A DNA stretch of 55,101 bases from a virus, in the IMG/VR virus record IMGVR_UViG_3300029448_000053, positions 1 to 55,101 of that record. One strand, 5' to 3'. Under the pieces are notes generated by a model. The model was given only the letters and a program-made list of their open reading frames with translations. It was not told where the DNA came from and searched no databases. The position numbers and the translations under genes were made by a program. This document shows, one piece after another, positions 16,945-36,422 of this stretch. Within the stretch, counting starts at the first letter, position 1, and every line of letters starts with the position of its first letter.

Positions 16945-19644
16945 ATGTATGAAAATGCAATGAACACAGATAGTGGTTTAGGCATGATTTTTGCTATGCT
17001 ATGGGTATTCCTACTCATGGGCGCAGTAATGACGGCCTTCATCACCCAACGATTAGAAGAAACAATGCGAATGCGTGTTGGACTCGAAATAGAAGTTCTA
17101 CGGAACGACCATACCGAGAATGCACCCAACCACTCAATTGCGACTTGGCTTGACATGAAAGCGGCCGCCGAAGGCGACGCCTACAATCAAGCGTATGAAA
17201 AGACACGAAAGAAGCGTGTCAGCATGTATCGAAAGACTCGTGCGAAGCGGCGAGAGGCAATACATAAAGCCCTGCCCCATTCATACTACAATAGACGTTT
17301 TAGAGTTCGTGATGAGTCGTGGTCTCAAGGCCGCACTGCACCACATACCAAAGTCATACCCGATGGTTCACTATCGAGTGGTGGCTTTGAAGTCGTGTCG
17401 CACCCTTTAACAGATGGTGCACATCATGGTTGGATTGCCACACTTGGTAGACTACTACGACACATAACTCGTATTGACCGCTCATGTGGGCTTCATGTCC
17501 ACATTGGCCTAAGAGACCCCGACGCTAATTTTGGCGACGGCGGTCAACTTACAATGACCGATGCAAAATCAATTGCTGGTCGAGTTGCTTGGGCCTATGC
17601 TTACTTCACCGATGCTTTCAACCAGATTGTATCACCGAGTAGACACTCCGGTCAATACTGCCAACGGTCCTACCATATGCTTCGGACTCACCCGAACCCA
17701 ACAAACCACACTACACGCCGACGAGACACTCATGTGATGGATAACCCATCACAGGAAGCCTACATACTTGATGGGACACATGAATACGAACAACTGTATG
17801 ACAATGACCCAAGTGAAGGATATGTAATCTACCGAGTTGAAAAACTTGAAGGGCAGACCTTGTGGCATAAAATGTATGACAACGCACGGAGTCATGGTCG
17901 TTATTACCATCTCAATGTGTGCAGTCTCCTTGACAGGCCCTTTGGCACTGTCGAGTTCCGTCAACATCAAGGAACATCAAACCCAGTGAAAATGAGTAAC
18001 TGGGTCGACTTATGCTATGAGTTTGTATTGCGGTGCGCCAGTGTCGAAAACTTTAATGGAATACAGGCATACTCACAGGACCTCAAAGGACTGTGGGCAT
18101 TCCTTGACTATGCGGAGGATGACCCAGTGGTTGACTATTATACCAAGCGTGCATATGTTCTAAATGGAGGCAACTTCATACGGGACTGCGACAATTGCGG
18201 TAGTAATACCTGTGTGCATTACGAGTGTGTAACAAAACTTGACAGCGACATTTCCGATGACGCCAAAAGATTCTTTGCCAACTCTCGTGATTGGTCTTGT
18301 TATGACTGCGGTAGTAGTAATTACCTTAGTGAGATTAACACTGAATATGAAACTGCTCACTGTGAATACTGCGACAATGAAGTGTCAATACACTGTTCCG
18401 GTGCAATTGCATCACTCGCCCTCGGCCTCTTTGTAGCCGCACCACTCGTGGGTGCAGTTGCACTGGTAGTCGGATGCGGTATAGGTGCAATCCATGTTGG
18501 TGCCAAGAAGTTCCAATCAAAGAAGAACTTCAAGCGTTTGTTCAATGACCTCGCAGTGCGTGGTGGACAAGCGTCTGGTTTTGCGTGGCAAAAGTCCAAA
18601 GGTGGCGAGACATCCGAACTGTGGTATATCAAATCGCCCACTCCCTCGACTCATCTCAAGAAGCGTGTCGATGACCTTGTAAAAGGCGACACTATTTGGA
18701 TAATGGGACATACTCGATTTGCCACACACGGTGAAAACAATTCCGACAATGCACACCCGCACTGGAGTCCAGACGGACACATAACACTTATTCACAACGG
18801 TGTTGTAGGTAATTATGACAAGGTGTGGAAAACCCTCGGCCTCAAACCGACGGGTCCAGTAGACAGCCAAGCAGTTGCCGCCGCTCTCGAAGTTGGTGGT
18901 ATCGAAAAGGTTGTTGAACTGTGCGTGGGCAATATGTCATTGATTTGGTCGGACAACCGAGACCCGAAAGGGACACTCAAGTTCTGGACAAACGGTGGCA
19001 ACCCACTATGTGCTGGTAGACTACATCATCCAAACAAAGGTCCACTCGTCATAGCATCGACATTACCAATCCTCAAGCAGTCTCAAAAGGGCTTGAAAAC
19101 ACACTGGTCGTGCACTATCGGAACTGAATACACAGTTCACCCCGATGGTTCAATCGAAAAGCGTGATATTGAAGGAAGTGAGGATAGTGTCGGTGTTGGC
19201 ATGTATAACTGGCGAACATATGCGAGCCTATACGGTGGTAAGTCAAAGTCCAACAAGACTCGGACTATTACAGTCAACGCACCAACGGGTAAAGCCGATG
19301 GTGTGGCTGATAATTGCACACTACCCGATGTATCGGACAGTTACGAATACGATGACATGGTGCTCAACGATGTTCTAAATGACGTGTGGGCACAGATGAG
19401 CATAGATGGTTGGATTCCAATTGACGAATACCACGGTTACGACACACAGACACATGTTGGCGTGCGGCCCGATGGAACATCCTACAAACTACCAAATTAC
19501 TACGGTGGTAAGGCTATGGACCCAGTTATGGACACAGACCAAATGGTAATGGTATTGCGTGGCGAGTTTGACCCACGCACTACGACCAAAGGATTCAATG
19601 AAGTAGAATCCTACTGGAATGACGTGCAGGAATACTACAACTAA
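16945..19644 (+). CDS. Membrane-anchored amidoligase / zinc-finger / class II glutamine amidotransferase fusion
   Basis: The protein has 899 residues and starts after GGAGG. Residues 13-33 form a membrane helix. An amidoligase_2-type (COOH-NH2 ligase) domain follows, with GLEIE at 46-50, CGLHVHI at 181-187 and EFRQHQGT from 337. A Cys-rich double zinc site lies at about 413-484 (CDNCG, CYDCG, CEYC). A second hydrophobic stretch (about 487-510) ends in VVG-C511. From C511 the sequence fits a class II glutamine amidotransferase: CGIGAI, RGGQASG, GHTRFATHG near 587-595 and HNGVVGNYD near 618. These enzymes need Cys as the N-terminal residue, so cleavage before C511 is expected if it is active. 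Known amidoligases join amines or ammonia to carboxylates on peptides; the target here is unknown. Confidence 0.8.
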   Translation: MYENAMNTDSGLGMIFAMLWVFLLMGAVMTAFITQRLEETMRMRVGLEIEVLRNDHTENAPNHSIATWLDMKAAAEGDAYNQAYEKTRKKRVSMYRKTRAKRREAIHKALPHSYYNRRFRVRDESWSQGRTAPHTKVIPDGSLSSGGFEVVSHPLTDGAHHGWIATLGRLLRHITRIDRSCGLHVHIGLRDPDANFGDGGQLTMTDAKSIAGRVAWAYAYFTDAFNQIVSPSRHSGQYCQRSYHMLRTHPNPTNHTTRRRDTHVMDNPSQEAYILDGTHEYEQLYDNDPSEGYVIYRVEKLEGQTLWHKMYDNARSHGRYYHLNVCSLLDRPFGTVEFRQHQGTSNPVKMSNWVDLCYEFVLRCASVENFNGIQAYSQDLKGLWAFLDYAEDDPVVDYYTKRAYVLNGGNFIRDCDNCGSNTCVHYECVTKLDSDISDDAKRFFANSRDWSCYDCGSSNYLSEINTEYETAHCEYCDNEVSIHCSGAIASLALGLFVAAPLVGAVALVVGCGIGAIHVGAKKFQSKKNFKRLFNDLAVRGGQASGFAWQKSKGGETSELWYIKSPTPSTHLKKRVDDLVKGDTIWIMGHTRFATHGENNSDNAHPHWSPDGHITLIHNGVVGNYDKVWKTLGLKPTGPVDSQAVAAALEVGGIEKVVELCVGNMSLIWSDNRDPKGTLKFWTNGGNPLCAGRLHHPNKGPLVIASTLPILKQSQKGLKTHWSCTIGTEYTVHPDGSIEKRDIEGSEDSVGVGMYNWRTYASLYGGKSKSNKTRTITVNAPTGKADGVADNCTLPDVSDSYEYDDMVLNDVLNDVWAQMSIDGWIPIDEYHGYDTQTHVGVRPDGTSYKLPNYYGGKAMDPVMDTDQMVMVLRGEFDPRTTTKGFNEVESYWNDVQEYYN

Positions 19645-19728
19645 GCATTGTTTCTTTAATCGACCGATGTCCTTAGTGTAATACACACTGAGGTTCCTTA
19701 ACCGATGGTTGAGGTTGCCGCCAATCTT

Positions 19729-19742
19729 GGGGCTTCGGCCCC
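19729..19742 (+). terminator. UUCG hairpin after the amidoligase gene
   Basis: GGGGC-TTCG-GCCCC is a perfect 5-bp stem with a UUCG loop, 85 bases after the stop. It lies just before the first copy of the cassette module. Confidence 0.4.
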
Positions 19743-19753
19743 TTGAGAGGCCC

Positions 19754-19833
19754 CCGCTGGCGAGCGGTTTACAAATACGCATTCACATTCCAGCCTTCGG
19801 GCATTCCTATTCCCTCACAGGGAGGTATAACAA
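19754..19833 (+). repeat. Cassette module copy 1 (hairpin, TATA-like box, SD leader)
   Basis: The stem CCGCT-GGCG-AGCGG (19754-19767) is followed by TTTACAAATACGCAT, then TTCCCTCACAGGGAGG and TATAACAA just before an ATG. Related modules lie before the genes at 20080 and 20566 (leader only) and at 20757. The box AAATACGC may be the promoter of each small gene. Confidence 0.55.
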
Positions 19834-19935
19834 ATGATGACTGCAAATGAAATTGAAGATGCAATAATCGCTGAACAAGTGGCTATTGATACTGCAAACA
19901 AAGAAGCATGGGCATTGGCTATTAGTCAATGCTAA
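19834..19935 (+). CDS. 33-residue acidic microprotein
   Basis: The frame starts ATGATG behind GGGAGGTATAACAA and encodes MMTANEIEDAIIAEQVAIDT and 13 more residues, ending in SQC. It is acidic, helical and has a C-terminal Cys. It is too short for a known fold. Its own promoter-like module and strong ribosome site argue that it is made in quantity. Being next to the amidoligase gene, it could be a peptide substrate or inhibitor; this is a guess. Confidence 0.5.
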   Translation: MMTANEIEDAIIAEQVAIDTANKEAWALAISQC

Positions 19936-20013
19936 GTAATTGTAATACAATTACTACTGTTAAACCGATGACTTGGCATACTCCAAGACGGCTGAGGAGC
20001 CACCCCAAATAGA

Positions 20014-20079
20014 TGCGACCGTCGTGGGCGCTATACAAATACACGCATATTCCCCCACAGGAAAGGAGGTAAAACAAAC
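20014..20079 (+). repeat. Cassette module copy 2
   Basis: GCG-A-CC...GG-G-CGC forms an imperfect hairpin (20014-20031), followed by TATACAAATACACGCAT, CCCCCACAGG and AAGGAGGTAAAACAAAC before the ATG. Block order and spacing match copy 1. Confidence 0.5.
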
Positions 20080-20415
20080 ATGGATAAATACAAGCAACAA
20101 ATTATGCAACTGTATGCTACGCTACTGCGTGCACACATAGCATTACTTGATGAGATATTGGATGCGGCTACAAGTAAAGCCGCACGCCGATGTGCAACCA
20201 AAGCCAGTGAGCAAATCTGCTCAACTGTGTATCATTTGATACATGACACTGGTGTTATGCCCAACAGCCACATGATACCATATATCGACGACTTGGCCCC
20301 AACAGCCGACGACTTCGATTTCGGTCTCATGCACTCTGTTCGGGATATGGAGAAGCAAGTGTTCCCGTCGACAGTCGGCGGTCGCACTGGCTTCGGCCTA
20401 TACCCAAGCAACTGA
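20080..20415 (+). CDS. Helical protein of unknown function in the cassette array
   Basis: The protein has 111 residues with a strong AAGGAGG site. The first 60 are helical (QQIMQLYATLLRAHIALLDE) and include a small Cys/Ala region (RRCATKASEQIC). The second half holds DDLAPTADDFDFG and ends GGRTGFGLYPSN. It has no known family that I recognise. It is the longest product of the microgene array and has its own module upstream and a UUCG hairpin downstream. Confidence 0.6.
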   Translation: MDKYKQQIMQLYATLLRAHIALLDEILDAATSKAARRCATKASEQICSTVYHLIHDTGVMPNSHMIPYIDDLAPTADDFDFGLMHSVRDMEKQVFPSTVGGRTGFGLYPSN

Positions 20416-20492
20416 TGTCTCATTAGTAATCCAGTATATCGGTAGGCCGTAGATAACTCGGCACTACTGTTCCCGAAAGGGTAGCCGCACTG

Positions 20493-20512
20493 CCCCTCGC
20501 TTCGGCGGGGGG
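20493..20512 (+). terminator. UUCG hairpin between microgenes
   Basis: CCCCTCGC-TTCG-GCGGGGGG pairs over eight positions (one T-G pair) with a UUCG loop, 78 bases after the 111-residue gene. Confidence 0.4.
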
Positions 20513-20565
20513 TGGTGCCCAACACCTCCTCTCACATCACACTCCACACAGGAGGTATAACAAAA

Positions 20566-20676
20566 ATGGAAAATGAATGGGAATGCGGTTGCATTCAAAC
20601 AGGAACAAATTGGATTCTGTGCAAAGACTGTAAGGCGGCGCGTGAGCACCCTCTTGCATGTGCTTGTTGCCAGTAA
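20566..20676 (+). CDS. 36-residue zinc-ribbon microprotein
   Basis: The frame starts behind CACAGGAGGTATAACAA, identical in style to the 33-residue gene. The product MENEWECGCIQTGTN... has seven Cys residues, including CGC, CKDC and CACC, enough for one or two metal sites. Such small ribbons usually bind nucleic acid or protein. It belongs to the array downstream of the amidoligase. Confidence 0.6.
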   Translation: MENEWECGCIQTGTNWILCKDCKAAREHPLACACCQ

Positions 20677-20756
20677 GCATAATCCAAATGCCAAGCCAAA
20701 AATACCAAATGGATGACGGGCATTTTAACCCGACGGTTGAGGAACCACCCACATAA

Positions 20757-20822
20757 ATGCGCTGGCGAGCGCCATATAAATACGCTTCATTTTTTTTATC
20801 ACAGGTAGAGGATGACAAACAG
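20757..20822 (+). repeat. Cassette module copy 4, without an intact gene
   Basis: GCGCT-GGCG-AGCGC, then CATATAAATACGC, a T-run and TCACAGG, followed by GTAGAGG and ATGACAAACAGATAG, which stops after four codons. The stem differs from copy 1 by paired changes (CCGCT/AGCGG to GCGCT/AGCGC), so base pairing is kept. The gene that followed seems to have been lost. Confidence 0.5.
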
Positions 20823-20838
20823 ATAGTCAGTAGACTAT
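20823..20838 (+). promoter_or_regulatory. Inverted-repeat operator ATAGTC-AGTA-GACTAT
   Basis: This is a perfect 6-bp inverted repeat around four bases. Its half-site ATAGTC is also the core of elements A-D, so one viral or host regulator may bind all of them. Confidence 0.45.
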
Positions 20839-20892
20839 GCTCCCCGTCGTGGGGGATGGATGGGCATGACTGGAGATGCTCTCTCTCTCTCT

Positions 20893-20963
20893 TATAGTCT
20901 TAAGACTTAAGACTATACCACATGCGCTAAGGAGAGCGATTTTTGGCGGCGAAAAATCCAAAC
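20893..20963 (+). promoter_or_regulatory. Operator/hairpin element A
   Basis: It begins with TATAGTCTTAAG facing CTTAAGACTATA (20893-20917), a near-perfect 25-base palindrome. GGAGAGCGATTTTT, the loop GGCGGCG and AAAAATCC-AAAC follow, with a 7-bp GATTTTT/AAAAATC stem. It has no start codon, so it is probably a regulatory or small-RNA element. Confidence 0.55.
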
Positions 20964-21023
20964 ATTCGCACACGCACACACACATGCGTCATACACTGCT
21001 AAAACCGAGGCTCTCTACGCACA

Positions 21024-21096
21024 TATAGTCTTAAGACTAATCCCCCCACCATACACGTATTAGGAGAGCGGTTTTTCACCTAAAAAAATCCAAATC
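21024..21096 (+). promoter_or_regulatory. Operator/hairpin element B
   Basis: TAGTCTTAAGACTA (21026-21039) is a perfect 14-base palindrome. GGAGAGCGGTTTTT, a short loop and AAAAAATCC-AAAT follow. Elements A and B are about 130 bases apart and both continue into CACACACACATGC, so they look like a tandem duplication. Confidence 0.55.
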
Positions 21097-21457
21097 AAAA
21101 TGCTTATGAGGCACACACACATGCACATATGTGCGTATATACGGTGCCGAATCCCTACGAAAAAGCCCCTAAACAGGCGAAAAAGCGAACATATGTGCGG
21201 AATCAGGCGCAAAACACCGGCAAAACGCCGAAAAACGAGGCACTTGTATCTGTGTGGGTAGGCTCACACGCTACATGCGAGTATTTCGATTACGCCAAAA
21301 ACCAAACATGTTATAATGCGTATGTGCTGGAACTCTCTACTTTCGCACCCGTTCCGCATACACATCCATACATGACGCATATATCTACGCTTACGCATAG
21401 GGCCAGCAAACAGTGGAGCAGTGGTCTCTTTAAGTATCGAATGTAGGGGGAGAATCC

Positions 21458-21474
21458 TAATATACCGGCGGCCT
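21458..21474 (+). promoter_or_regulatory. TATA promoter of the microgene train
   Basis: AATATACCGGCGGCC lies 30 bases before the ATG at 21489, which would give an almost leaderless mRNA. From 20964 to this point I see no well-supported protein gene. Confidence 0.5.
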
Positions 21475-21488
21475 CACATTTCACTTTG

Positions 21489-26533: not shown

Positions 26534-27444
26534 GTGCTACTCGAACCCAACAAAAAGTTGTCCGAGGTGGAGGCACTGTTGAACAATGGCAACTTATGCA
26601 AATCATAGCCGAAGCCCGTCGAGCAGTGAAGACATACACAGGTAGTAATGGCAAAGAATACCCGAACAACAAATACCGAACAATGATTCGAGATGGCAAA
26701 CAGCAAACAGTGCAATACACGAAGAAAGAAATGATGGGCATAGAATACTTGACTACGCTAATAGCACATCAAGGCCGCACCCATTACTCAATTGTAAGAA
26801 CTATAAAAGCACTGAGACACCCATCCGTTGAGGATTTGCTACGGCTTACATACGGCAATCAACCCGTTACAGTAGCCGTTACAGTGTATAACATTCACGA
26901 CGACAAGCATGTTAAGTTGTATCAACACTCCGATGGCCCACTACTCGACAAGGATGGCAACGAAACGAATTACCCTAAGCATGGACAATGGTTGAACTCA
27001 TGGAAAAACCGAGTAGTCTTGACGCCTAAGTGGGCTAAGGACTTTCGCAGTTGGATGGCTCGCAACAAGGTGCTCATGGACACCATCGAGGCCAAGTATG
27101 TGATTAAGCAAAACCATGAATCTCACATACGAGCAAAGTCAAGCCTCAGTCAAGCCGAGATGCACAGGGCGATGAGCATAAAGAAATTAGATGCGTTTGG
27201 CGCCAACTATGATGAATACTGCGAAAAGTGGGAGGCTGAGGAGGCGTGGCTCAAGGCCGCACCGAAGCACATGGGCGTCATTTACCGACGAAATATCAGT
27301 AATAACCCAATGAAGTATAAGTTATCACCGGATGCACAGATGAAACAATTAACCCGTAATTTGGATATGGCTACTAAGGAGGTTACACACTGGCAACAAC
27401 AGGTAGAATCACTGGCACAGATGTTCGGAGATGAGGAGGAGTGA
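26530..27444 (+). CDS. 304-residue unknown helical protein
   Basis: It begins MSATRTQQKVVRGGGTVEQW. It is basic, mostly helical, with a beta-rich segment at about 115-150 (QPVTVAVTVYNIHDDKHVKL) and a C-terminal coiled coil (LTRNLDMATKEVTHWQQQ). The first 70 residues, with NNKYRTMIRDGKQQ, could contact nucleic acid. I do not recognise the family. It is the second largest product of the train and is coupled to genes at both ends. Confidence 0.55.
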   Translation: MSATRTQQKVVRGGGTVEQWQLMQIIAEARRAVKTYTGSNGKEYPNNKYRTMIRDGKQQTVQYTKKEMMGIEYLTTLIAHQGRTHYSIVRTIKALRHPSVEDLLRLTYGNQPVTVAVTVYNIHDDKHVKLYQHSDGPLLDKDGNETNYPKHGQWLNSWKNRVVLTPKWAKDFRSWMARNKVLMDTIEAKYVIKQNHESHIRAKSSLSQAEMHRAMSIKKLDAFGANYDEYCEKWEAEEAWLKAAPKHMGVIYRRNISNNPMKYKLSPDAQMKQLTRNLDMATKEVTHWQQQVESLAQMFGDEEE

Positions 27445-27638
27445 GTAATCGGCCACACGACCAAATACGCACCATGATTGATGATGCCAATGCGCTCAAA
27501 GAAGTATGGTTTGAGAGGATGGCAAACGCTACCTCACGGAGTGAGCGAGCGGAGTCTATACGGAATTACAACGCCCTGCGTGGTGTCGTCAAGGCACTAC
27601 GTTGGGCATACTTCGGTGGAGATACACCACTGAATTGA
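27441..27638 (+). CDS. 65-residue basic helical protein
   Basis: The GTG start at 27441 overlaps the previous stop (GTGA) and follows GAGGAGGA. The product (MSNRPHDQIRTMIDDANALK...) is one or two helices ending in ALRWAYFGGDTPLN. The function is unknown. Confidence 0.5.
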   Translation: MSNRPHDQIRTMIDDANALKEVWFERMANATSRSERAESIRNYNALRGVVKALRWAYFGGDTPLN

Positions 27639-27655
27639 TATAGGAGTGGCCCCTA
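27635..27655 (+). promoter_or_regulatory. TATA promoter within the train
   Basis: TTGATATAGGAGTGGCCCC lies right after a stop codon. The predicted start of RNA, about 25 bases from the box, is near the ATG at 27665, allowing a leaderless form of the next gene. Confidence 0.45.
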
Positions 27656-27904
27656 ATGACAAACATGAACCCTTACAGAATACAGTTCATCAACGGCTAC
27701 ATCGAAGTCGAAGAACGCAAATCGCCCAACGGAACACCCGAAGCCAAGTGCACCCTGCACCCAATGGCACAGACTGCTATGCTCTTTCGAGAGGTAGTGG
27801 CATGGGCAAACGAAAACAATTACACCCACACCAAGTTGCTAATGCGGGGTGGCGACCCTTATGTCGTTGCATGGCAACAAATCTCTACGGAGGAATTAGA
27901 ATGA
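27656..27904 (+). CDS. 82-residue unknown protein
   Basis: It begins MTNMNPYRIQFINGYIEV; the ATG at 27665 is an alternative leaderless start. It has beta strands first (IQFINGYIEVEERKS) and then helices (MLFREVVAWANENNY). It ends in ATGA coupling. No family is recognised. Confidence 0.55.
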   Translation: MTNMNPYRIQFINGYIEVEERKSPNGTPEAKCTLHPMAQTAMLFREVVAWANENNYTHTKLLMRGGDPYVVAWQQISTEELE

Positions 27905-28212
27905 AAAAATATAGTGAATACTTAAACGAGCAATATACCCCGCTTACACGGGATGAAGTAATGAAATTACAGAAGACAGTGAACAACTACTTGGGTCAAA
28001 TGGACCCGAACTGTGAGGCCCAAGACGAGTTACGGCGGATGACTGTTAATCTCAATGTGGCCTTAAGTGAGGTCGCATTCCTACGAGAACAATTGGCGGT
28101 TGCCTACCAATACATAGGGCGACGAGCACCCAACCCAGCACCGACCAAGTATCGTGAGGTCATGCACCATGCGACACGGATTCGGGGCGAGGAACGGGGG
28201 GTGAGCCAATGA
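27901..28212 (+). CDS. 103-residue coiled-coil protein
   Basis: It starts at 27901 (MKKYSEYLNEQYTPLTR) after GGAGGAATTAG. The centre is a helix with heptads (LNVALSEVAFLREQLAVAY) and the tail is basic (HHATRIRGEERGVSQ). A competing longer frame that starts at 27646 runs over the previous gene and is rejected. The function is unknown. Confidence 0.55.
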   Translation: MKKYSEYLNEQYTPLTRDEVMKLQKTVNNYLGQMDPNCEAQDELRRMTVNLNVALSEVAFLREQLAVAYQYIGRRAPNPAPTKYREVMHHATRIRGEERGVSQ

Positions 28213-28943
28213 ACATATTCGCATTATCAACCGACCCCATAAGAGCGGCGCAAATGGTGTGCGACAGACACGCCAGTAAAATGTGCGTCGAGACTGCACA
28301 GATGATGGCTTCGGCCCTGCTTCGCAACGGATTCGAGTCGGAGGACATGCCGCTTACAAGTAAGGGCACACCTTACAAGGGTGGCTACAAGCACCATCCC
28401 TGCACAGTATGGGCTGGCGATAACTGGGCTAATTTTCTATGGCTCGCTCAACATGGGCTGGCACTATGTGATGAGTTCAAAATGCGATACGGCGAAGGGC
28501 GAGTAGAACATGCTTGTCGTAAGCCTATCAATAAAATGCTCAACATGGCCGTGAACCGTAAAGACACAGGCATATACTATCACATGCGAGGCATAACTAC
28601 TACTGGCCCCTTTGGGCATTTGTTAAATCAAGAATGGCCGAAGAAGACTGCCTTCGCTATGGCTATGCCCGACGAGTTCAAGCGTGATGATGGCAAAGAG
28701 GTGCTCGCATACCGAGAATACTACAAGTCAAAGGTGTTCAAGGATGGCTCCCGCCCTACATGGGCAAAGGGGCGAAGTGCACCCGAATGGTGGGAACTTA
28801 GAGTTGGATTTCAACGAATGATGGAGAACCTCACCGAAGGACTTGACGGACTCGTTGCGCAAACCGCCGAAGCGATAGACACGGCACGGGCACGGCGGGC
28901 TTTGGGTTACACATATGTTGGAGGTGATTGGGAAAATGAATAA
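28209..28943 (+). CDS. Conserved phage protein (CDxHxxKM-ETAQM family)
   Basis: The protein has 244 residues. It begins MNIFALSTDPIRAAQMVCDR, and the pattern CDRHASKMCVETAQM, then YKHHPCTVWAG, NFLWLAQHGLALCDEF and YREYYKSK ... PEWW fits a family I know from many phages and large viruses, of unproven function. I have a weak memory of a link to DNA-repair glycosylase folds, but nothing in this sequence proves it. The His and Cys in the first block may be active or metal-binding residues. Confidence 0.6.
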   Translation: MNIFALSTDPIRAAQMVCDRHASKMCVETAQMMASALLRNGFESEDMPLTSKGTPYKGGYKHHPCTVWAGDNWANFLWLAQHGLALCDEFKMRYGEGRVEHACRKPINKMLNMAVNRKDTGIYYHMRGITTTGPFGHLLNQEWPKKTAFAMAMPDEFKRDDGKEVLAYREYYKSKVFKDGSRPTWAKGRSAPEWWELRVGFQRMMENLTEGLDGLVAQTAEAIDTARARRALGYTYVGGDWENE

Positions 28944-29136
28944 TAATGCTGGATATGCCGAATACCACGAGATTACACAGGCTCTCACTACAACGACAGA
29001 CATAGCCCTCGATGCGATAAAAATTATCCGTATGCTTGGGCATGATGAACTCGCAAACACATTAACAAAGAGGCTATTGATAGCACAGAAAAATATATAT
29101 GGGGGCAACCCCCCAATACAAAATGGAGGCAACTGA
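28936..29136 (+). CDS. 66-residue protein with NAGYAEYHE start
   Basis: It starts at 28936 (MNNNAGYAEYHEITQ) behind GGAGGTGATTGGGAAA. The first residues are shared with the gene at 29344 through a 29-base exact repeat. The rest is helical (ALDAIKIIRMLGHDELANTL). The end of the gene contains the TATA box for the next gene. Confidence 0.5.
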   Translation: MNNNAGYAEYHEITQALTTTTDIALDAIKIIRMLGHDELANTLTKRLLIAQKNIYGGNPPIQNGGN

Positions 29137-29138
29137 AA
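29090..29138 (+). promoter_or_regulatory. TATA promoter and leader
   Basis: AAATATATATGGGGGCAACC is followed by ATGGAGGCAACTGAAA and an ATG. The end ACTGAAAATG equals that of the 23031 leader. Confidence 0.45.
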
Positions 29139-29351
29139 ATGAATATAGAACTTTTAGAAGCGGCGAAGGACTTACTACGGTGGGTTTTGATTAAGAACGA
29201 AGGAACGCTACCACTACCCTTATTGGATGCACAGCATGTCATTATGGAGGAACAGCGAGAACAGGACCTTGAGGACCTGCGACATAGCGAGAGGGCGAGT
29301 TTTCACTCGAACCTCATGTATGTCCTATACGGAGATGAACCACATGAGTAA
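29139..29351 (+). CDS. 70-residue acidic protein
   Basis: It begins MNIELLEAAKDLLRWVL and contains HVIMEEQREQDLEDL. A similar HVVMEE block with a similar DNA sequence occurs in the next gene, so the two share a segment. It is mostly helical with unknown function. Confidence 0.5.
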   Translation: MNIELLEAAKDLLRWVLIKNEGTLPLPLLDAQHVIMEEQREQDLEDLRHSERASFHSNLMYVLYGDEPHE

Positions 29352-29553
29352 TGCTGGATATGCCGAATACCACGAGACAACGGTGCACGCAGTCCTTGAC
29401 GAATACATGACGAAGGAGGCCGCAATAGAGGCACTCATGGAATACTTTCGCAAAGCGGATAAGCATGTCGTTATGGAGGAATTGGCCGAGTGGGTGTATG
29501 CCGACGAAGAATGTAGCATAGTAGACCTTCGGGGGTGGATTAAGTATGAATGA
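29344..29553 (+). CDS. 69-residue protein sharing parts with two neighbours
   Basis: It begins MSNAGYAEYHETTVHAVL. Its first nine codons repeat the gene at 28936 and its HVVMEE block repeats the gene at 29139, so it looks like a recombined copy. It is acidic and helical and ends DLRGWIKYE. Confidence 0.5.
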   Translation: MSNAGYAEYHETTVHAVLDEYMTKEAAIEALMEYFRKADKHVVMEELAEWVYADEECSIVDLRGWIKYE

Positions 29554-29713
29554 AGGCCGAAGAGTATGCAACAATCCATACTGCGAATCCACACCTAATT
29601 GGTTTGGCAACTTCGCACTGTGCACCAAGTGCCTGTATGAAGCGGCGAATGTGTTTGTTATGAACAAGTTGCTCGAAAAGACTCTTAGTGGACTCAAGGA
29701 GGGGAGTGAATGA
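29546..29713 (+). CDS. 55-residue zinc-finger protein
   Basis: It begins MNEGRRVCNNPYCESTPNWF and continues to CTKC, giving Cys-x4-Cys and Cys-x2-Cys knuckles. The second half is a helix. It is coupled to the next gene by ATGA. Confidence 0.55.
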   Translation: MNEGRRVCNNPYCESTPNWFGNFALCTKCLYEAANVFVMNKLLEKTLSGLKEGSE

Positions 29714-29970
29714 TACCATACACAGAATACCTGCTCACGGTAGATGACATGAAAGTGAGCGACATGCTATGGACTGCGCCCGACAAAGAACCACAGGCGG
29801 TAGCGAAGTATGCCGCTAAAATGAAAAGACTCTCCGAGCATAACTTGAGGTTGATGAAAGCCGAGTATGTGCGAAAGAAGACTCAATATCAACGTCAAGT
29901 GAAGAATGCTACCTACTGGGGCATGGCTTTAGATTTGGCTAAAGAAGACTTGAAGGGGGGCTTACAATGA
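29710..29970 (+). CDS. 86-residue basic helical protein
   Basis: It begins MIPYTEYLLTVDDMKVSDM. The central region is a basic coiled coil (AAKMKRLSEHNLRLMKAEYV). It is coupled at both ends. The function is unknown. Confidence 0.5.
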   Translation: MIPYTEYLLTVDDMKVSDMLWTAPDKEPQAVAKYAAKMKRLSEHNLRLMKAEYVRKKTQYQRQVKNATYWGMALDLAKEDLKGGLQ

Positions 29971-35388: not shown

Positions 35389-36057
35389 ATGGGCGTAGTA
35401 ATTTTTACCAAAGACGATGAGCGATACCGAACTGGGAATTACTTCGCTATGTATGGCGAACTCACAGTCTCCCCAAGCCTACCACACACTACTTACATTC
35501 TACACATTAACAAGTTCACTGAAAAGGATGCGCTCTATTGGGCAAAAATAGTTCCCTTTAGACTTGTTGTAGTCTCCGATAAAATGCCTAAATTAACAAA
35601 GGCGAGTGAAGAATGTGTCATCCTCGACCAATCAATCAAGACCAGTAAGCCGGACTTCTCTCGCAAAATGAGAGCCGCCTTATGCTGGGCCGACCGAGAC
35701 CGTGCACACACCGCTCTCGGACCTATCCCTCTCCCCTTAGCCAACGCATTCATCAAGGTTAATGTTCACGACATCAACCTCGGTCGCCTCTTGGCTCGAT
35801 GTCGCTATACCCTGCATGACAATTACACTCGTGCCGCTATTGCATACGGCATCAGTCCTATTCGCAATTTTAAATGGCCTTCTAAGAAGGCCAGTAATGA
35901 CTATATAGTGCCGAAAGGTATTAGACAAACAGACAAGCACATAAGCACTATCATAAATAATGATGTGATAGTAGCCAATGAGTTGCGTATCAATGATACC
36001 GCCGCTCTACCTGCTCGTCTAAACAAAACAAAACAGGATGTAATACAATGGGTATGA
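35389..36057 (+). CDS. 222-residue unknown alpha/beta protein
   Basis: It begins MGVVIFTKDDERYRTGNYF. Strands (YILHINKF, FRLVVVSDKMPKL) followed by helices look like a Rossmann-type or ATPase-like core without a P-loop. The last third is basic (YGISPIRNFKWPSKKASND). An inactive clamp-loader subunit is conceivable because this part of the genome carries the RFC gene, but I cannot support it from motifs. A TATATAGTGCCG element lies in the gene at 35902. Confidence 0.5.
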   Translation: MGVVIFTKDDERYRTGNYFAMYGELTVSPSLPHTTYILHINKFTEKDALYWAKIVPFRLVVVSDKMPKLTKASEECVILDQSIKTSKPDFSRKMRAALCWADRDRAHTALGPIPLPLANAFIKVNVHDINLGRLLARCRYTLHDNYTRAAIAYGISPIRNFKWPSKKASNDYIVPKGIRQTDKHISTIINNDVIVANELRINDTAALPARLNKTKQDVIQWV

Positions 36058-36422
36058 TGATGAAACAAAAAGCAATAGATACGGTGTTTGTTTATGGAAC
36101 ACTAAAACAAGGATATACGAACCACTATTTTCTTGAAGACTCCCTTTACTTGGGGGAGTTCAAGACTAATCCTAAGTGGGGCTTATTAGATTTAGGTTTA
36201 TTCCCTGCTATGGTTGTAGGGTCCTTAGAAGTAGAAGGTGAGGCGTATGGTGTCAGTGAGGAAACTCTCGACCGACTCGACCGACTCGAAGGCGTAGAAC
36301 AAGGACTCTACCGACGAAAAAGAATCAGTGTCAACGACAGTCTCGGCAACAGTATCAGTGCTTGGGCATACATTTACAATGCCATTCCTCATAACGAAAC
36401 AACATTATTAGCGGAGTGGTGA
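36054..36422 (+). CDS. Gamma-glutamylcyclotransferase (AIG2-like) family protein
   Basis: The protein has 122 residues. It has the family start VFVYGTLKQGYTN (substrate loop) and the pattern GEAYGVSEETLDRLDRLEG...LYRRKRI, in which the Glu of GEAYGV is the usual catalytic acid. These enzymes release 5-oxoproline from gamma-glutamyl amines or peptides. The family is known to be linked with amidoligases in peptide-modification gene sets, and this genome carries such an amidoligase at 16945-19644, so the two may work on the same bond. The start at 36054 uses the ATGA overlap. Confidence 0.8.
   Translation: MMMKQKAIDTVFVYGTLKQGYTNHYFLEDSLYLGEFKTNPKWGLLDLGLFPAMVVGSLEVEGEAYGVSEETLDRLDRLEGVEQGLYRRKRISVNDSLGNSISAWAYIYNAIPHNETTLLAEW

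Follow-up and report, generated by a model that had tools for sequence, protein, structure and literature searches.

Results

A small-gene array lies downstream of an amidoligase gene

Downstream of an amidoligase gene we found an array in which three small ORFs (33, 111 and 36 codons) alternate with four intergenic modules. The array is part of the IMG/VR virus record IMGVR_UViG_3300029448_000053, whose 55,101 bases are the whole stretch of DNA analysed here (the window). The upstream gene encodes a fusion protein with Pfam matches to PF12224 (E 2.8e-10) and PF13522 (E 1.3e-14). That the three small genes stand behind a leader of the CACAGG type, as an earlier note on this DNA had it, can be read directly in the sequence and its ORFs. 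The repeated leader is CACAGG-(n)-AGGAGGT-ATAACAA, also written CACAGG(n)AGGAGGTATAACAA, and a three-copy repeat family (D1) was detected in the window. The features are as follows.

16945..19644, + strand: Amidoligase_2 - class II glutamine amidotransferase fusion, 899 aa, upstream of the array
19702..19833, + strand: module 1, with UUCG hairpin, GGCG hairpin, TATA-like box and leader
19754-19767, + strand: module 1 hairpin CCGCT-GGCG-AGCGG, abutting TTTACAAATACGC
19768-19777, + strand: module 1 TATA-like sequence TTTACAAATA
19816-19833, + strand: module 1 leader CACAGGGAGGTATAACAA, the leader also having a GCC-TTCG-GGC mini-hairpin
19834..19935, + strand: 33-aa cassette gene, no homologue in relatives
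19961..20079, + strand: module 2, with palindrome, imperfect hairpin, box and leader
19990-20001, + strand: module 2 palindrome GGCTGAGGAGCC
20015-20031, + strand: module 2 imperfect stem GCG-a-CC-GTCGT-GG-g-CGC, without GGCG loop
20032-20041, + strand: module 2 box TATACAAATA
20056-20079, + strand: module 2 leader CACAGGAAAGGAGGTAAAACAAAC
20080..20415, + strand: 111-aa cassette gene, in all relatives, helical, no known family
20472..20565, + strand: module 3, two hairpins and leader, no TATA-like box
20472-20481, + strand: module 3 hairpin CCC-GAAA-GGG
20487-20518, + strand: module 3 14-bp UUCG hairpin, -32.7 kcal/mol for the segment
20547-20565, + strand: module 3 leader CACAGGAGGTATAACAAAA
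20566..20676, + strand: 36-aa Cys-rich cassette gene (MENEWECGCIQTGTNWILCKDCKAAREHPLACACCQ)
20730..20797, + strand: last module (module 4), with palindrome, GGCG hairpin, box and T8 run
20735-20746, + strand: last-module palindrome GGTTGAGGAACC
20759-20772, + strand: last-module hairpin GCGCT-GGCG-AGCGC, abutting CATATAAATACGC
20773-20782, + strand: last-module box CATATAAATA
20790-20797, + strand: last-module T8 run
20798..21485, + strand: conserved block of non-coding DNA following the last module; may be an ncRNA or an origin region
20812-20826, + strand: four-codon ORF at the start of this block

The modules differ in make-up, for module 3 lacks both a TATA-like box and a stem of the GGCG-hairpin kind. 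None of the internal hairpins is followed by a T-run; T8 occurs in the last module only.

Among the proteins encoded in the window are a terminase, a portal, a family B DNA polymerase and an RFC-like clamp loader, together with an ERCC4-type nuclease, a PD-(D/E)XK exonuclease and a Sak4-like annealing protein. Matches of the terminase include the haloarchaeal viruses phiH and PhiCh1, and Halorubrum tailed viruses head the list for the polymerase. Because of these matches and the archaeal-type replication genes we read the virus as an archaeal tailed virus; its habitat is probably marine plankton. Alignments of the amidoligase and the 111-aa gene against the genome collection returned no contig with either, and they therefore give no host or provirus link.

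Related viruses carry the same modules with other genes

A scan of the hairpin-box pattern over 2.9 million viral contigs retrieved exactly two relatives, L002, a 21-kb contig that begins inside module 1 (M1), and L003, a 61.6-kb contig. Protein searches added L027/L028 and L029. The resulting comparison set comprises five contigs including the window, two being 12-kb pieces and some being partial. Window and L003 are about 85% identical over much of the genome. We also searched the viral contigs for the exact leader CACAGGAGGTATAACAA; eight of its nine matches were without hairpin and box, and we took these as chance. The order of genes and modules is:

Window: amidoligase, M1, 33 aa, M2, 111 aa, M3, 36 aa, last module
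L003: amidoligase, M1, 111 aa, M3, 36 aa, last module
L002: M1, 111 aa, M3, 66 aa, mosaic module, 53 aa, last module
L027: amidoligase, M1-like module (CCCAGT-GGCG-ACTGGG, GTATCAACACGC), 111 aa, leader, 79 aa, leader with 10 codons, T-run
L029: amidoligase, M1-like module (CCGCT-GGCG-AGCGG, AACAAATACGC), 93-aa homologue of the 111-aa protein, leader with ATG-TAA, T-run

The earlier note had suspected an expandable cassette system and had proposed beforehand to look in related viruses for other genes behind the same module. This search was positive in four contigs, and among the relatives both the number and the identity of the genes behind these modules indeed differ. The 33-, 66-, 53- and 79-aa genes occur in one virus each among the five contigs and, together with the 36-aa gene, are mutually unrelated. 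For these four ORFs, which have no relatives, the assignment as genes depends on leader and start codon. Searches of the cassette proteins against Pfam and PHROGs gave no match besides a ribbon-helix-helix-like one below the Pfam cut-off for the 53-aa product of L002.

The 111-aa gene has a dN/dS of about 0.2-0.6, varying by pair. AlphaFold predicted a helical structure of low confidence (pLDDT 59), inadequate as a query for fold comparison. Among named phages no relative of the family was found with the 93-aa L029 homologue as query. This homologue (L029 10255-10536) is without one internal segment, in frame, and keeps the conserved C-terminal tail.

The hairpin arms covary around a fixed loop

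The consensus hairpin plus box was found twice in the window and never in 100 shuffles, and in all five contigs it is confined to the array locus. GGCG-loop hairpins with arms of at least 5 number three in the window, against 0.28 expected per random window, and only those at 19754-19767 and 20759-20772 precede a box. The three stems that had been noted before a box are two perfect GGCG hairpins and the imperfect stem of module 2, which lacks the GGCG loop and was left out of the covariation alignment. The proposed change from CCGCT/AGCGG to GCGCT/AGCGC, with pairing and loop kept, was borne out, since the arms covary among orthologous and paralogous copies and are 100% paired. Across six distinct rows from the five contigs, 30/30 cells of the arms were paired and four of the five pairs had double changes; the covariation score for these rows was 0.72, compared with 0.21 when shuffled and at most 0.11 in slid controls. 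At the orthologous M1 position two compensatory pairs distinguish the hairpin of L027 from that of L029, and the last-module hairpin of L002/L003 (GCGCA-GGCG-TGCGC) differs from that of the window by one pair. The GGCG loop is invariant across all aligned copies, orthologous and paralogous. In this alignment the constancy of the loop beside freely changing arms speaks for the folded form, or the loop plus symmetry, being what is recognised, and not a fixed palindromic DNA word. We regard it as a rather speculative extension, improbable at present, that a viral factor recognises the shape of the hairpin (as single-stranded DNA, cruciform or RNA) and that one tag thereby serves both capture and expression of cassettes. 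If true, archaeal viruses would have a counterpart of integron sites that works without a recombinase.

The hairpins could also serve the processing or the stability of a single long RNA, by 3'-end protection and 5'-leader tuning, with the TATA-like boxes being incidental. A fixed loop with varying arms resembles RNA-level selection, as do the UUCG and GNRA tetraloops, and module 3 has hairpins without a box. Its UUCG hairpin folds with z = -3.4 in the window and -4.1 in L003, and a compensatory change from G-C to U-A, which likewise resembles RNA-level selection, separates the two. However, conservation of the box AYAAATACGC is similar to that of the hairpin, next to which it directly sits in most copies, and the box lies 39-75 nt ahead of each start codon. 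This spacing would fit an archaeal box; with the 39 nt of the 53-aa module of L002, transcription would begin nearly at the Shine-Dalgarno sequence. Lying upstream of the box, the hairpin would be part of the previous transcript if the box acts as a promoter. We consider the account by RNA elements unlikely, yet worth keeping in mind, and since it concerns the working of the modules it could be compatible with gene exchange. An Rfam search gave no match. A leader hairpin inside the transcript (GCC-TTCG-GGC versus CTAC-GAAA-GTAG at the same place) is suggestive; it overlaps the predicted start site and we do not claim it.

Genes are swapped behind and between modules

Module 1 is 94.8% identical over 97 bp to its counterpart in L003, which there precedes the 111-aa gene. 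Module 3 shares 98.9% identity over 90 bp with the L002 module ahead of the unrelated 66-aa gene, which takes the place of the 36-aa gene; the 36-aa protein is identical in L003, with 3 synonymous changes in its gene. The L002 module ahead of the 53-aa gene is a mosaic whose successive, overlapping parts correspond to three window modules: first to the first half of module 2 (93.5% over 62 bp), followed by module 4 (95% over 59 bp) and module 3 (100% over 28 bp).

The comparison of window and L003 places one clean indel junction in a leader. The two contigs are about 60% identical through the end of the amidoligase gene and nearly identical from GAGGTTGCCGCC of module 1 across hairpin, box and TTCGGGCAT in the leader; the 33-aa gene and module 2 are then missing from L003. 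More precisely, L003 tracks window module 1 to CTTCGGGCAT and continues with the window module 2 leader from TTCCCCCACAGG. At this site the leaders of modules 1 and 2, 240 bp apart in the window, have 13/14 bases in common.

An exchange of units bounded by modules predicts that relatedness will conflict between the amidoligase and the 111-aa gene, and such a conflict was found. Window and L003 are 94.3% identical in the 111-aa gene and 62.6% in the amidoligase gene, with the switch inside module 1; window and L027 are 75.0% and 55.4% identical, respectively, while L027 and L029 show the reverse order (65.6% and 71.1%). Ordinary operon decay would instead assume a tandem duplication of promoter and leader, followed by deletion and divergence of the small ORFs, with no exchange between viruses. 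It would explain the deletion in L003 as simple recombination between two direct repeats, and the modules are adjacent and similar. It does not readily account for unrelated 36-aa and 66-aa genes behind a nearly identical module, for modules and flanks that are assorted as mosaics, or for the disagreement between amidoligase and 111-aa gene. We therefore judge decay without exchange to be distinctly unlikely.

The last module closes the array

The earlier note had read the last module as one that lost its gene. In that form the reading is not supported, since the last module of all four relatives likewise lacks a sizeable gene (0, 1 or 10 codons), yet box, T-run and non-coding block are kept. 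The four-codon ORF with its stop exists in the window; it is not conserved in the relatives. A TATA-like sequence and a run of 7-9 T are kept at the array end in all five viruses, and between 16 and 31 kb of the window the same strand has no run of at least 7 T besides T8. We read the T-run as the array end and a candidate terminator.

The block after the last module begins with CAGCGAGAGGACAG in four viruses, and its start is diverged in the window. Nucleotide identity between window and three relatives is 75.7-82.5% over about 700 bp, and about 650 bp (window 20830-21485; L029 10660-11357) are kept at 76-92% in the relatives covering it. In our reading an untranslated RNA may begin here, or else the block may be origin-like. 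A consensus fold showed negligible covariation, so that an ncRNA is unproven. The block also holds palindromes TATAGTCTTAAGACT and paired GGAGAGCG-ATTTTT...AAAATCC repeats.

Cassette genes change beside a retained amidoligase

It had also been suggested that the small genes encode peptide substrates of the neighbouring amidoligase, a proposal for which we found no support. Adjacency speaks for it, and the 111-aa gene, with its conserved C-terminal tail, lies beside the amidoligase in all relatives showing both. It is, however, the only cassette gene to stay there. Most cassettes vary while the amidoligase is kept: the 33-aa gene is missing from the three relatives whose amidoligase is seen, the 36-, 66-, 53- and 79-aa genes are related neither to it nor among themselves, and at least one product is ribbon-helix-helix-like, i.e. 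DNA-binding-like (below the Pfam cut-off). The substrate hypothesis is thus very improbable. Integron-like, site-specific cassettes with the hairpin as recombination site are suggested by the gene-plus-hairpin units and by a fixed loop with variable arms reminiscent of structure-recognised sites, and are extremely improbable, as the tyrosine and serine recombinase families (PF00589 and PF00239) were absent from all five contigs, some partial, and the one clean junction falls in the leader and not in the hairpin.

The amidoligase fusion has 52-59% aa identity in three relatives. Its DNA (16945-19644) is 62.6% identical between window and L003, though identity is about 85% elsewhere; from these values the gene appears to be either replaced or unusually fast-evolving between the two viruses.

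Discussion

We consider it likely that the array consists of small-gene cassettes with promoter and leader, whose exchange in an archaeal tailed virus proceeds through recombination over short homologies. Each module would carry one or more hairpins at the 3' edge of the preceding transcript, mostly a TATA-like box, and a Shine-Dalgarno leader. Because the module supplies these elements, a short ORF arriving behind the leader would be transcribed and translated at once. The repeated modules, the gene swaps, the indel with its junction in a leader, the mosaic module and the hairpin covariation can be seen directly in the sequences. From there we infer roles in promotion, termination and translation, and likewise recombination by homology: since the modules resemble each other, copies within one genome or in co-infecting relatives could recombine over short homologies, whereby an ORF would be inserted, deleted or swapped. 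Expression modules would thus double as homology for recombination, and the Sak4-like annealing protein, with the exonuclease system, is a candidate enzyme. At the array end the T-run would act as candidate terminator, and the adjoining box could start an RNA in the non-coding block. The ORFan cassette products may have an early role in host takeover.

The closest precedent is Halogranum tailed virus 1 (HGTV-1). According to a review, its genes have upstream a TATA-like box with an inverted repeat, a motif that was compared to the PeSLs of T4 and for which roles in transcription control and shuffling were proposed (PMC3950731). We inspected HGTV-1 (NC_021328) and found the motif CTCCTCGTG-GC-ACGAGGAG...GTATATAAA upstream of many short genes. 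Like the window virus as we read it, HGTV-1 is an archaeal tailed virus, and both have an inverted repeat just upstream of a TATA-like box, repeated before short ORFan genes; the window has two perfect and one imperfect instance, and the four relatives have more. The motifs themselves, compared by eye, show no evident sequence similarity and differ in arms, loop and spacing, and are likely analogous rather than homologous. Inverted repeat and box are several nt apart in HGTV-1 and 0-2 nt in the window. HGTV-1 has many copies with nearly constant arms, whereas the window has 3-4 modules with arms covarying around a fixed GGCG loop. Unlike the window, the HGTV-1 regions inspected have no conserved Shine-Dalgarno leader, and for the window modules gene exchange between genomes was seen.

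Functional analogues of the modules, by comparison of their parts, are the PeSLs of T4-type phages and the SAS/ESAS of mycobacteriophages. PeSLs of T4-type phages combine a bacterial sigma-70-type early promoter with a terminator. These promoter early stem-loops (Arbiol 2010, Comeau 2014) lie between small genes and are composites of promoter and stem-loop linked to gene shuffling among related phages (as cited in PMC4503421 and PMC3950731). The window likewise has a promoter-like element and a stem-loop between small genes, and the PeSL trait of different genes behind the same module was found here (33/111, 36/66 and the extra 53-aa gene); it differs in its archaeal-type box and the added Shine-Dalgarno leader. 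In cluster K mycobacteriophages, SAS is a repeated 13-bp ribosome-binding-site motif, GGGATAGGAGCCC, before a subset of non-structural genes; it is dispersed across the right half of the genome, about half of the copies have a 17-bp inverted repeat upstream (ESAS), and the same motif precedes different gene families (PMC3203893). A repeated ribosome-binding motif before different genes is common to both systems. Unlike for the window, no TATA-like box is described for SAS/ESAS, and the SAS sequence is not found at the window starts, where the CACAGG-type leader stands.

New beyond these systems are the covarying hairpin with fixed loop, the Shine-Dalgarno leader that forms part of the module, and exchange evidenced directly by comparison. 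The direct comparison of related uncultured viruses suggests that a promoter-leader-like module can serve as a plug-in socket for ORFan microgenes of archaeal tailed viruses. A module search (pattern GCTGGCGAGCGNNNWAYAAATACGC) is therefore a route to candidate host-takeover or anti-defence microgenes of archaeal viruses, and the array is a test case for short homologies driving gene content change.

Two further observations concern the genome outside the array. Relative to the window, the contigs L002 and L003 have the order of two adjacent gene blocks swapped (window 27441-28793 and 28981-29970), and gene shuffling therefore occurs also where the module is absent. A gamma-glutamyl cyclotransferase of the GGACT family is encoded at window 36048-36422, in the same genome as the amidoligase-amidotransferase fusion, and these activities may belong to one pathway.
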